A DNA stretch of 35,517 bases. Origin: Chthoniobacterales bacterium (GTDB lineage: Bacteria > Verrucomicrobiota > Verrucomicrobiia > Chthoniobacterales > UBA10450). Within the stretch, counting starts at the first letter, position 1; each line of letters begins with the position of its first letter. Below the pieces are notes generated by a model, which worked only from the letters and a program-made list of their open reading frames with translations, made no database searches and was not told where the DNA came from. Positions 26,071 through 31,521 of this stretch are shown piece by piece. The translations under genes and the position numbers were made by a program. Where the stretch lies: contig JACDGS010000041.1 in NCBI GenBank assembly GCA_013821455.1, positions 1 through 35,517 on the forward strand, given 5' to 3'.

Positions 26071-27564
26071 ATGCTAATTTTCTCTTTATGGCGGAAGGCC
26101 TTCGCGACTATCTTTTTTGCCGTGGTCGGAGTGACTTTCGCTCAAGCGGGAAGTGTGACCGCAACATGGGACGCGAATCACGAGCCGGACATTGCGGGGT
26201 ATAACCTTTATTACGGCACGACCAGTGGAGTCTATCCGCAAACCTTAAACGTAAGCGGCGTTACGACGACCGCTGTTATTAACGACCTTACGGAGGGAAG
26301 TCAGTACTTCTTTGTCGTTACCGCCTATAACGCAGGCGGGTGGGAAAGCACTCCATCCTTGGAGCAGAGCTTCACCATCCCGGCGCCGACCCCGACGCCA
26401 ACGCCTTCACCTACCGCAACACCGACGCCGACCGAAACTCCTACGCCAACGGCCACACCTACTCCAACCGCGACGCCGACACCTACCCCTTCTGCCACAC
26501 CAACTCCTACAGAGACACCCACACCAACACCCACACCAACACCCACACCAACACCAACACCAACACCAACACCAACACCAACACCAACACCAACACCGAC
26601 CCCGACACTTACTCCGACCCCGACTTCTACTCCCACTGTTACACCACCGCCTACACCTACCCCGAAACCTACTAGGACTCCCTCACCGACTCCTACAGTC
26701 AAACCTTCCCCAACGCCGCGGCCCTCGCCTACTCCAAGGCACACGCCCAGTCCTACCCCTTCTCCGCGTGCCCTTCTGGATGACTCACCGCCGATGACCT
26801 TTCTCAACGTCTCTACCCGCGTCCAAGTGCAGGATGGCGATAACGTTCTGATCGGCGGCTTCATCGTCACCGGCGACAAAGCCAAGAACGTTGCCCTGCG
26901 CGCGATCGGTCCCTCCCTGGTCGCCGCTGGAATCCCTGACGCCTTGACCGATCCAGTGCTCGACCTCTATGACTCGACCGGCACTTTGATTCAGGAAAAC
27001 GACAACTGGACCAGTCTCCCGGCCGAAAGTGTGCCGGAAGGAGTCGCACCAAGCGATCCTCGTGAGTCTCTCATTGTTGCTACGCTAACACCCGGGAATT
27101 ACACCGCGGTTTTGCGGGCGGCCCGAGGTCCTGTAGGTGTAGGTCTCTTCGAACTTTACGATATCGATGCCGGGAATTCGCGAGTTAGTAACATCTCAAC
27201 CCGCGGCGTAGTGGAAGCAGGTGACGGCGCGATGATCGCCGGTTTCATCGTTGGTGGGACCGACGCGACCAAAATCATCGCCCGCGCCCTCGGTCCTTCC
27301 CTGACCGACAACGGCGTCGCCGGAGCCTTGGCCGATCCCATTCTCGAGCTGCGCGATGCAACCGGTTCGCTTATCTTTTCTAACGACAACTGGCGCTCCG
27401 ACCAGGAGCAGGAAATCATAGCGTCGACCATCCCGCCGACAAGTAACAAAGAAGCAGCCATTGTCGCCACCCTTCCACCGGGAGTTTACACTGCCACCGT
27501 GCGCGGGACTGGCGAGACGACCGGCGTCGCTCTGGTAGAAGTCTATAACTTGGGAGCGCCTTAG
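26071..27564 (+). CDS. Secreted Fn3 - Thr/Pro linker - double surface-repeat protein
   Basis: 497 residues. A signal peptide (1-26, ending TFAQA) is followed by a fibronectin type III domain (27-103: [38 protein letters not shown]). A long Thr/Pro linker of about 125 residues comes next. Two copies of a roughly 125-residue module follow, each beginning [21 protein letters not shown] or [21 protein letters not shown] and containing [19 protein letters not shown] and a closing [10 protein letters not shown]. The module is frequent in secreted proteins of Verrucomicrobiota; its function is unknown, perhaps adhesive. The next gene is a paralogue without the linker. Two dyads precede the start. 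The linker contains a hexanucleotide microsatellite. No TCGTTAGGC copy lies inside, but one lies 2 nt after the stop. Confidence 0.88.
26517..26598 (+). repeat. In-frame ACACCA/ACACCC hexanucleotide microsatellite
   Basis: About thirteen hexamer units of ACACCA/ACACCC type lie in the Thr/Pro linker of the Fn3 protein, flanked by degenerate versions. Unit length 6 keeps the frame, so slippage would change linker length without breaking the gene. Confidence 0.85.
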
Positions 27565-28863: not shown

Positions 28864-28974
28864 GTCATCCCGTGCGGAGCGAGGGACCTCGCATGCGTTT
28901 CTCGGCTTTGATTTCAGGGAGGACCGAATCCCGCTTGTGAGGTCCTTCGCCGCGCTTCGCCGGCTCAGGATGAC
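28864..28974. repeat. REP-like long inverted repeat, copy D (inverse of copy A)
   Basis: It begins GTCATCCCGTGCGGAGCG and AGGGACCTCGC, and ends GAGGTCCTTCGCCGCGC then CGGCTCAGGATGAC. Its two arms match copy A (4716-4828) in reversed order with few changes, so the same element is inserted in the opposite orientation. It lies between the convergent Fn3 and GNAT-aminotransferase genes and may terminate both. Confidence 0.85.
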
Positions 28975-28990
28975 AATGGCATTTTCAAGT

Positions 28991-30748
28991 TCACTCTTGA
29001 GCGAGTAGGTCAGTAATAATCTCGAGCATGCGCGAGTTAGTCGCGCCATCTTTGACCGCAAGGCGGATTGCTCGCTCTCCCATTCCCGCGCCCATCGTCG
29101 CGGCGTCCCGCAAATAGAGATGCTTCTCCTGGCAGGCGCGGATAAGACTGGCGGCGTCCGGTCCATGGTCGGGCAAATGACAAAGAAGGAAGTTAGCCGC
29201 CCCGTGAATAACATCCCAACCCAGCGCTTCTAACTTATTTGCAAGGTCATCGCGCAGCTTATGAGTCTCCTCATAACGTTCCTGATAGTAAGAAGGATCG
29301 TGTAAGGCTTCCACCGCAGCGGCCTGCGCTGGCAGGTTAACTACCCAGGGAGGAGTTATAGTTCTTAACTCTTCCAGTTGGTGTTGACCCGCGCAGAGGT
29401 AAGCGACACGCGCGCCACTTAGAGCGTAAGTCTTAGACATGGATTTGCACACCAGGACATTCTCGCTTCGCGCCGCGAACTGCTCTAGTGACTGCTCGGC
29501 GCCTACATATTCAAGGTAGGTCTCGTCGACCCAGACCCGCGTTTGTTGTGGGACCCTTCTTAGGACTGCCTCTAACTCGTCTCGTCCCAGATATTGTCCG
29601 GTAGGACTGTTGGGATTAACCAGGACGACAAGGTCGTATCCATCCTGTAATGCAACCTCCAGCCGTTCGAGCGACACCTTGTAGTTATCCGCGCGCGAGA
29701 GACTGAGACGGTCGAGCGTGCAGCCGATAACGTTCTCCAGGACGTGTGCGTATTCGCCATAAGTTGGATCAAGCACCAGCGCGTGCGAAGCCGGAGTAAG
29801 CCATTGGCGCAGCACACGGAAAATCAGATCGGAAGAGCCCGCGCCCGGGAGAATGTTGGCCGGCTCTACGCCGCGCACTTCTGCGATGACTTCAATCAGT
29901 CCGGCGCAATCGGCCGGTGGCGAAGTCTGCAAAAGCCAGGGCAAGTGCCGCTCGAGAACGGCGAGAGCTTTGGGCGAAGGTGGAAACCATGCGTCCAGCA
30001 CATCGGCGTTAATGACGTCCGCGCGATCCTCCAAGCTATCGAACCTTTCGCCGATTGCTTTGAAGAAAGAGCCGCCGTGAAAGCAGGCAGTCGATTTGCA
30101 AAATGGGAAGTGGAGCTTCCAATCAGTCTTCTCCGCCAGTCGTTCGACAATCTTCGGGTAGCTATCTAAACGCTCACGCAACGCGGGCAGGCTCGCGTGC
30201 AAGAGTTCATAAGTCACCATGCCCGATTGACCTTCCATTCCTGTTCTGGCTAACCCTACCTTGAGATACAGATCGAGTATCTCCCGGCGTCCTAGCACCA
30301 TAATACGATCGCCGCCGTGAGACTCCACCCAACGGAAGGCGGCATACATGAGTAAGGCCGCCAGATCACTGCCGCGTTGCGCCTTGAGCACACTTAGTAA
30401 CCGCACTTCGTAAAGATAGCGGTTAACCGGAAAGGGCAGCGCGGTTCGCGCGAAGTATTTGTCGATGGAATAACTCTCACCTGGCGGAGTAATGCTGATA
30501 AACCCACCTAACTCGCCTTCGCTTCTGGCAATGACGAAGATATTTCGATCGTCAAGAGAATCGCTTAAGCAGCCTAAGTCATTAACTGGATGCTGCTGCA
30601 GCTCGCGCGCATAAATGTGATGACGCGCTCGGTATATCTCTGCGCGATCCCGCGAGGTGGCGAGCGAGATAGTGATGGGACGCAGCGCGATTCGCTTTCG
30701 GTGAGTAAGCGCGTTCTTAGAAAAGCGCGCAGCGATTTGCATGGACAA
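28991..30748 (-). CDS. Fusion of GNAT-like (acyl-homoserine-lactone-synthase-like) acyltransferase and class I/II aminotransferase
   Basis: 585 residues. About 25-200 form an acyltransferase of the GNAT/AHL-synthase/FeeM style: SRDRAEIYRARHHIYARELQ, an Asp-rich LSDSLDDRNIFVIARSEGELGGF, YEVRLLSVLKAQRGSDLAALLMYAAFRW, then DLYLKVGLARTG. From about 240 onward there is a fold-type I PLP enzyme resembling HisC/CobD: ILPGAGSSDLIFRVLRQWL, VLDPTYGEYAHV, VLVNPNSPTGQYLGRDEL, VWVDETYLEY and the PLP lysine K439 in SMSKTYALSGARVAYL. The inferred activity is making an amine and acylating it, or acylating an amino acid; the product is unknown. It lies 119 nt downstream of carbonic anhydrase on the same strand. 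It has no TCGTTAGGC copy. Confidence 0.8.
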   Translation of the reverse strand: MSMQIAARFSKNALTHRKRIALRPITISLATSRDRAEIYRARHHIYARELQQHPVNDLGCLSDSLDDRNIFVIARSEGELGGFISITPPGESYSIDKYFARTALPFPVNRYLYEVRLLSVLKAQRGSDLAALLMYAAFRWVESHGGDRIMVLGRREILDLYLKVGLARTGMEGQSGMVTYELLHASLPALRERLDSYPKIVERLAEKTDWKLHFPFCKSTACFHGGSFFKAIGERFDSLEDRADVINADVLDAWFPPSPKALAVLERHLPWLLQTSPPADCAGLIEVIAEVRGVEPANILPGAGSSDLIFRVLRQWLTPASHALVLDPTYGEYAHVLENVIGCTLDRLSLSRADNYKVSLERLEVALQDGYDLVVLVNPNSPTGQYLGRDELEAVLRRVPQQTRVWVDETYLEYVGAEQSLEQFAARSENVLVCKSMSKTYALSGARVAYLCAGQHQLEELRTITPPWVVNLPAQAAAVEALHDPSYYQERYEETHKLRDDLANKLEALGWDVIHGAANFLLCHLPDHGPDAASLIRACQEKHLYLRDAATMGAGMGERAIRLAVKDGATNSRMLEIITDLLAQE

Positions 30749-30867: not shown

Positions 30868-31521
30868 TTATAGCGCTCCGGATAATTCCGCGATAGCCTT
30901 CTCATAAGTGGAGAAGCTGCCGTCGAAAGTTTCCGAAGTGATATGCAGATCTCTGAGAAGGCCATCCTTTAGACCATAAATCCATCCATGCACCGCTAGT
31001 TCCTGGCCACGTTCCCAAGCGTCCTGCGCGATCGTAGTCTGGCAGACATTCGCTACTTGTTCGATGACATTCAGTTCGCAAAGAAGGTTACTCGCTTCTA
31101 ACTCGTTCCCCGCGCGCGTGAGGATAGCGAGATGTTTTTGCCGGATATCCTGAACATGGCGCAACCAGTTATCACTTAGCCCTAGTCTTTCGCCGCGCAG
31201 AGCCGCCTGCACGCCGCTACAACCGTAGTGTCCGCAGACGATGATATGAGGCACTTTCAACAGATCGACTGCGAATTGCATCACAGATAGACAGTTAAGG
31301 TCGGTGTGGACGACGAGGTTGGCGATGTTGCGATGGACAAAGACTTCGCCCGGAAGCAGACCTACAATTTGATTGGCCGGCACACGGCTATCCGAGCAGC
31401 CGATCCAGAGATAACTCGGTGCCTGCTGTCCGGATAACTTAACAAAAAAGTCCGGCTCCGAACGGCGGATATCTTCCGCCCACGTCTTATTCCTCGCGAA
31501 GAGGTGTTCCAACCCAGCCAT
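30868..31521 (-). CDS. can: Beta-class carbonic anhydrase
   Basis: 217 residues. It converts CO2 and bicarbonate in the cytoplasm. The zinc ligands and catalytic dyad fall at the same positions as in E. coli Can: C42 and D44 with R46 in WIGCSDSRVP, then H98 and C101 in VCGHYGCSGV. PGEVFVHRNIANLV and VHGWIYGLKDGLL are also typical. It starts 13 nt after the end of the BNR/dockerin gene and precedes the GNAT-aminotransferase fusion by 119 nt, all on the minus strand. Supplying bicarbonate to a carboxylation step is the usual role; a link with the fusion gene is only positional. No motif copy is present. Confidence 0.95.
   Translation of the reverse strand: MAGLEHLFARNKTWAEDIRRSEPDFFVKLSGQQAPSYLWIGCSDSRVPANQIVGLLPGEVFVHRNIANLVVHTDLNCLSVMQFAVDLLKVPHIIVCGHYGCSGVQAALRGERLGLSDNWLRHVQDIRQKHLAILTRAGNELEASNLLCELNVIEQVANVCQTTIAQDAWERGQELAVHGWIYGLKDGLLRDLHITSETFDGSFSTYEKAIAELSGAL

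Follow-up and report, generated by a model that had tools for sequence, protein, structure and literature searches.

The 35,517-nucleotide stretch of Chthoniobacterales DNA analysed here (contig JACDGS010000041.1, hereafter the window) encodes a protein in which a GNAT domain is followed by a PLP-dependent enzyme in one chain, and comparison with relatives, which often lie beside genes for phospholipid synthesis, suggests that this fusion enzyme probably builds the amide-linked core of a lipid type not yet described. The initial annotation of the window had suggested that one chain could produce an amine and acylate it, giving among other possible products a lipid, and this suggestion is supported by the lipid genes found beside other copies of the gene and by a second, convergent fusion of the same kind.

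A GNAT domain joined to a CobD/HisC-like enzyme

The minus strand of the window carries a 585-codon open frame at 28991-30748 that encodes the GNAT-PLP fusion protein, in agreement with the initial annotation, and both motifs quoted there are present in the protein. Translation most likely starts at ATG 30742, which lies two codons inside TTG 30748 and gives a protein of 583 rather than 585 aa. Residues are numbered here from the ATG and are two below those of the initial annotation, whose K439 is our K437. Pfam recognises one GNAT domain and one Aminotran_1_2 domain in the fusion protein, and the features of the gene are collected in Table 1.

Table 1. Coordinates of the fusion gene, its domains and motifs, its neighbour, and examples of the class V fusion at other loci.
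Feature	Coordinates	Strand	Basis
GNAT-PLP fusion CDS, 583 aa from ATG	28991..30742	-	ORF, alignment
GNAT domain, AHL-synthase/FeeM/OlsB kind, residues 22-207	30122..30679	-	Pfam, predicted fold
Residues 112-114, with invariant E112 and R114 of the (Y)EVRLL(S/T)V strand	30401..30409	-	Alignment A1
Fold-type I PLP domain, CobD/HisC-like, residues 218-583	28994..30091	-	
Residues 208-253, with CobD-like HGG (222-224) and invariant ADVLDAWF	29984..30121	-	Alignment
K437 codon, PLP Schiff-base lysine by homology (SMSK)	29432..29434	-	
Beta-class carbonic anhydrase, neighbour, judged outside the system	30868..31521	-	
Class V fusion examples	L096 373-2049; L098 1465-3057; L099, L100, L102-L105	- (L096); + (L098)	

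The GNAT-PLP fusion is a true, old single gene. Thirty full-length copies, with 43-63% identity to the window copy, align across both domains; in alignment A1, 22 columns of the GNAT part and 65 of the PLP part show no variation, an agreement well beyond chance. The pairwise identities of the two domains are correlated (Mantel r 0.79, a value reached in 0 of 2000 permutations), as expected for one co-inherited gene. Among related loci from named genomes, 23 of 24 encode the whole protein and the remaining one is cut by a contig end. That the two halves might reflect a false gene fusion, a concern of the initial annotation, is ruled out, since at least 30 sequences from distant phyla have both domains in a single open frame and the divergence of the domains is correlated.

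Full-length copies occur in Verrucomicrobiota, Kiritimatiellota, Bacteroidota, Chloroflexota, Actinomycetota and a Longimicrobium bin, and the gene is also carried by Streptomyces plasmids, where it is annotated as a histidinol-phosphate transaminase. Within phyla its distribution is sparse: with the centre genome counted in each case, it was found in 11 of 387 genomes of the window's own phylum, in 2 of 396 of the phylum of a Virgisporangium genome and in 1 of 296 of that of a Segetibacter genome. Such a pattern suggests that the gene spread horizontally or was lost repeatedly. In a relative from the same family as the window's genome, the copy, located at the end of a contig, has a broken frame (L131).

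The N-terminal domain resembles AHL synthases, FeeM and OlsB

The AlphaFold model of the N-terminal domain has a pLDDT of 94.8, and the linker that connects it to the PLP domain has values of 65-68. A fold search with this model returned GNAT proteins, and AHL synthases occupied Foldseek ranks 1-5 (BjaI, E 4e-11; MesI; RpaI; TofI; LasI), bearing out the GNAT/AHL-synthase-like character first proposed for this domain; FeeM was also among the matches. In VIA-align the Z scores were 18.3 for TofI, 17.9 for BjaI and 17.8 for FeeM, all below the 19.1 of a short staphylococcal GNAT.

The domain has its GNAT fold in common with FeeM, LuxI-type AHL synthases and OlsB, and many members of the fusion family have family-level matches to them. 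The Pfam FeeM family (PF21926) matches 21 of 25 members at E≤1 (best 1.6e-9), the window copy being absent among the matches listed; Acetyltransf_5, the OlsB-type family, matches 16 of the 25, and TIGR03694 matches 23. Profile alignment shows that the conserved arginine and acidic residues of EsaI are shared by the fusion GNAT. However, identity to FeeM, AHL synthases and OlsB is about 15%, the fusion GNAT is joined to a PLP enzyme, and the match to Autoind_synth (PF00765) is weak. An AHL synthase proper of the LuxI type was rejected, since in a member-by-member Pfam analysis Autoind_synth gave weak matches in 9 of 25 members (best E 0.0029) and none in the window copy. The acyl group used by FeeM comes from a carrier protein (PMC6331615), and for the fusion GNAT an acyl-ACP (or acyl-CoA) would be the donor.

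The PLP domain is predicted to transaminate

The C-terminal half comprises an entire fold-type I PLP enzyme, most similar to CobD and HisC. It scores 138.6 bits against Aminotran_1_2 (cut-off 19.7), and the SMSK lysine is invariant; the initial reading of a complete HisC/CobD-like enzyme with K439 (K437 here) holds. The closest structure is Salmonella CobD (1lc7; Z 42.1 over 350 residues). The best NCBIfam models are likewise CobD and HisC, both of which score far below their equivalog cut-offs: TIGR01140 (CobD) reaches 197.6 bits against 290.55, and TIGR01141 (HisC) 177 bits against 276.55. Besides the fusion gene, the window's genome contains three other aminotransferase matches.

Like CobD and SMUL_1544, the fusion family has HGG, the lysine of the Schiff base and the two C-terminal arginines (R545 and R560). 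However, the SANxNP sequence of CobD is replaced by NADVLDAWFPP, in which ADVLDAWF is invariant and stands in place of the NxNP substrate loop of HisC and CobD, and the tyrosine of their 'RYP' motif is lost, the fusion family having TSPP. Because of these two changes, specificity is not readable from characterised relatives. A further difference lies in the DEx(F/Y) motif, where CobD (1lc5) and SMUL_1544 have phenylalanine (DEAF/DESF) and the fusion family has the invariant Tyr409 (DETY). Within the window's phylum, Phe is found at this position in one CobD that passes the cut-off and in three proteins near it, whereas HisC-type proteins have DEAY. With HisC the family thus has in common the fold and this tyrosine, but it is without the NxNP loop. 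An ordinary CobD was therefore rejected on its score, the missing SANxNP and the Tyr for Phe substitution, despite the presence of HGG, and an ordinary HisC on its score and the missing loop. As Tyr409 matches HisC and not the Phe of CobD, we infer that transamination is favoured over decarboxylation.

The alternative is a CobD-like decarboxylase that would form ethanolamine phosphate from O-phospho-serine, or aminopropanol phosphate from O-phospho-threonine, from which the GNAT domain would make N-acyl-ethanolamine phosphate or a similar compound. Both the nearest structure and the best NCBIfam model are CobD, with which the family shares HGG; SMUL_1544, with the same fold, is a decarboxylase, and Cj1436 decarboxylates serine phosphate in a PLP-dependent reaction. 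Such an enzyme is nevertheless improbable here, since the residue at the pyridine-hydroxyl position is Tyr where CobD has Phe, and SANxNP is lacking; no cobalamin biosynthesis genes were recognised beside the fusion gene, and products without a free hydroxyl would leave the PlsY-, PlsC- and CdsA-type partners described below unexplained.

Lipid genes recur beside the fusion gene

Lipid genes lie close to 18 of 40 distinct fusion copies by our count, and the other 22 have none within the DNA available, which for several of them is a short contig. Neighbour domains were assigned by Pfam on representatives. At ten loci a protein combining a PlsC acyltransferase with an AMP-ligase (acyl-ACP/CoA-synthetase), often together with an MFS transporter part, is encoded upstream on the same strand. 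Two loci (L009 and L010) place the fusion gene amid FabD, FabG, thioesterase, FabZ and PlsC genes, and at another it is followed by genes for a CDP-alcohol phosphotransferase, UbiA and DAG kinase. Five Streptomyces-type copies have a CdsA-like gene next downstream, which in the three annotated records overlaps the fusion stop codon. Verrucomicrobial host genomes have just 3-5 PlsC-domain genes each, so adjacency to the fusion gene is not expected by chance; many of the lipid-neighbour loci are related to one another, and the genomes are not independent. This recurrence across homologues strengthens the idea of a lipid pathway that begins with making and acylating an amine. The window copy itself has no lipid-gene neighbours, and its genome encodes elsewhere one PlsY, four PlsC-domain proteins and one protein that shares 36% identity with the PlsC-AMP-ligase partner.

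The pairing of GNAT and PlsC also recalls OlsB and OlsA. If the pathway instead resembled ornithine-lipid synthesis or led to N-acyl amino acids, a (possibly unusual) amino acid would come from the PLP domain, the GNAT domain would N-acylate it from a 3-hydroxyacyl-ACP, like OlsB, and PlsC would O-acylate the hydroxy chain, like OlsA. The Acetyltransf_5 and FeeM matches in most members are consistent with this, as are the FabG, FabD and FabZ genes at L009 and L010. We nonetheless consider it unlikely, for it would leave CdsA, the CDP-alcohol phosphotransferase and the extra PlsY of the second fusion (below) unexplained, and a CobD/HisC fold that keeps R545 and R560 suggests a phosphorylated substrate.

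A further alternative is that the enzyme makes a signal, an N-acyl amine that is secreted or diffuses away and is either AHL-like or an N-acyl serinol; the product would then belong to secondary metabolism and not to the membrane lipids. The GNAT fold is closest to that of AHL synthases, commensal N-acyl serinols activate host GPCRs (PMC12594153), and the patchy, apparently mobile distribution, Streptomyces plasmids included, would suit such a compound. Against this, the recurrent recognised neighbours are mostly phospholipid-type enzymes, and no LuxR-type regulator was recognised among the neighbours of the fusion gene, the recurrent regulator being a LysR-type gene. A signal therefore seems rather doubtful, and a membrane-lipid type of product is the outcome we would predict, with some confidence, from these neighbourhoods.

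Several other genes were seen near the fusion gene. The LysR-type regulator belongs to one family (MNIHHLELFYYVA.HGGI) and lies within about 6 kb at L007, L008, L012, L024, L026 and L064-L068. A gene for a B12-binding radical SAM protein adjoins the fusion gene in most Kiritimatiellia loci (L020, L021, L023 10075-11433, L028, L069 and L073), and in Streptomyces sp. KN37 the adjoining gene encodes a tRNA-dependent cyclodipeptide synthase (L048 14010-14522).

A second fusion with an unrelated aminotransferase

A profile search of the window's phylum with the GNAT domain identified proteins of 530-575 aa in which the same GNAT is followed by a PhnW/AepZ-like class V aminotransferase (Table 1). 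Twelve genomes carry this class V fusion (G174, G297, G111, G289, G107, G339, G145, G131, G253, G181, G204 and G319). In ten of them a PlsY-family gene lies directly upstream; it is a second PlsY copy in nine of the ten and the sole PlsY found in G111. An eleventh genome has the PlsC-AMP-ligase protein. The PlsY evidence comes from a fusion whose PLP domain is unrelated to that of the window copy.

The two fusions have in common the GNAT family, the domain order and a glycerolipid acyltransferase partner, whereas their PLP domains belong to unrelated families (class V versus class I/II). Judged by these sequence relationships, the class V fusion has a second, independent and convergent origin. 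That the same pairing was drawn from two unrelated PLP families, both tied to glycerolipid acyltransferases, argues for a joint function, and this is the strongest argument that we have. We regard it as likely, as a prediction, that synthesis of an amine and N-acylation of that amine take place in the same chain.

Both kinds of family member occur in two genomes, G319 and G181. The class I/II member in G181 is a PLP-only version in which the GNAT domain is absent (L073 9363-10511, minus strand); its place in the operon is unchanged, with an alpha/beta hydrolase gene on one side and the B12-binding radical SAM gene on the other, and the GNAT of this genome is found within its class V fusion.

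A proposed route to an amide-linked phospholipid

We propose that the PLP domain, with an amino donor that is probably glutamate, would convert a phosphorylated ketone, most likely dihydroxyacetone phosphate (DHAP), to serinol phosphate (2-amino-1,3-propanediol phosphate), which the GNAT domain would N-acylate with a fatty acyl group. The product, N-acyl-serinol phosphate, would be an amide analogue of lysophosphatidic acid. Amination and N-acylation would thus both reside on one polypeptide and the later steps with partners, which, where their genes are present, would carry out O-acylation (PlsY/PlsC), CTP activation (CdsA) and addition of a head group (CDP-alcohol phosphotransferase) to give an amide-linked phospholipid. 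In the window's genome these partners would be enzymes encoded away from the fusion gene. As a whole, this account of a bifunctional lipid enzyme leading from DHAP through serinol phosphate to N-acyl-serinol phosphate has, in our judgement, about an even chance of being right.

PlsY acylates the hydroxyl of glycerol phosphate, a chemistry that serinol phosphate fits and that ethanolamine phosphate and aminopropanol phosphate do not. Serinol phosphate is proposed because, among the phosphorylated amines known as products of such enzymes, it is the one with an acylatable amine, a free hydroxyl for PlsY/PlsC and a phosphate for CdsA; as the specific amine we regard it as plausible, at slightly short of an even chance. 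HisC, the N-terminus of RtxA and Cj1437 all act on phosphorylated ketones, and the RtxA and Cj1437 aminotransferases convert DHAP to serinol phosphate (PMC3222319, PMC11800397); these two were set beside the fusion through their descriptions, which mention no GNAT domain.

The fusion family is not the only case of this pairing to be considered. An N-acyl serinol synthase of Gemella reportedly joins an N-acyltransferase to an aminotransferase in one chain, as in the window protein, and makes N-acyl serinol; the likeness is drawn from that description, and its host and gene context differ from those of the fusion family. The earlier statement that no characterised enzyme has this order is thus probably too strong, and we do not claim the architecture as categorically new. 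No description of a GNAT-aminotransferase fusion or of a natural bacterial serinol phospholipid was found in the open-access literature searched. N-acyl serinols are confirmed as a product class in a review (PMC12594153). If our reading is right, the novelty would lie in the tie to phospholipid enzymes, in the convergence of two fusions and in the amide phospholipid proposed here.

More tentatively, bacteria of several phyla may make phospholipids with serinol in place of glycerol as the backbone and with an amide-linked chain. The committed step, amination of DHAP followed by N-acylation, would be carried out by one polypeptide, and the pairing would have been assembled at least twice, from unrelated PLP families, with recruitment of dedicated PlsY, PlsC and CdsA; we think this broader picture possible rather than probable. 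If it were true, membranes of some Verrucomicrobiota, Kiritimatiellota and Streptomyces could hold amide-linked phosphatidic acid analogues made from DHAP by one enzyme. Glycerolipid metabolism would then have a new branch, whose amide bonds withstand lipases that cleave esters and which would also supply molecules of the N-acyl serinol type, known to affect animal receptors when gut bacteria produce them. Even in a weaker form, the proposal would assign two concrete, successive reactions to proteins whose current annotation is 'histidinol-phosphate transaminase'.

Surroundings of the window copy

The fusion gene starts 125 bp downstream of the carbonic anhydrase gene on the same strand. The initial annotation had placed it there correctly, but a meaning of this position is not supported, and the neighbour is not conserved. 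No carbonic anhydrase gene was found beside any other fusion copy examined, and in a genome of the same genus (L127) the carbonic anhydrase gene and a fibronectin-like gene lie 0.47 kb apart with no fusion-like gene between them. The presence of these flanking genes without the fusion gene indicates that the carbonic anhydrase neighbour is incidental, and a functional link to it was rejected.

Just downstream of the fusion gene, at 28864 to about 28976, there is a palindromic repeat consisting of GTCATCCCGTGCGGAGCGAGGGACCT and an inverted counterpart. The GTCATCCTGAGCNNNGCGAAGGACCT motif has 93 matches in the window's genome with up to three mismatches allowed, and its reversed control has 0. 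At 26312-26885 a long proline-threonine repeat in the fibronectin-like secreted protein gives open frames in several reading frames.
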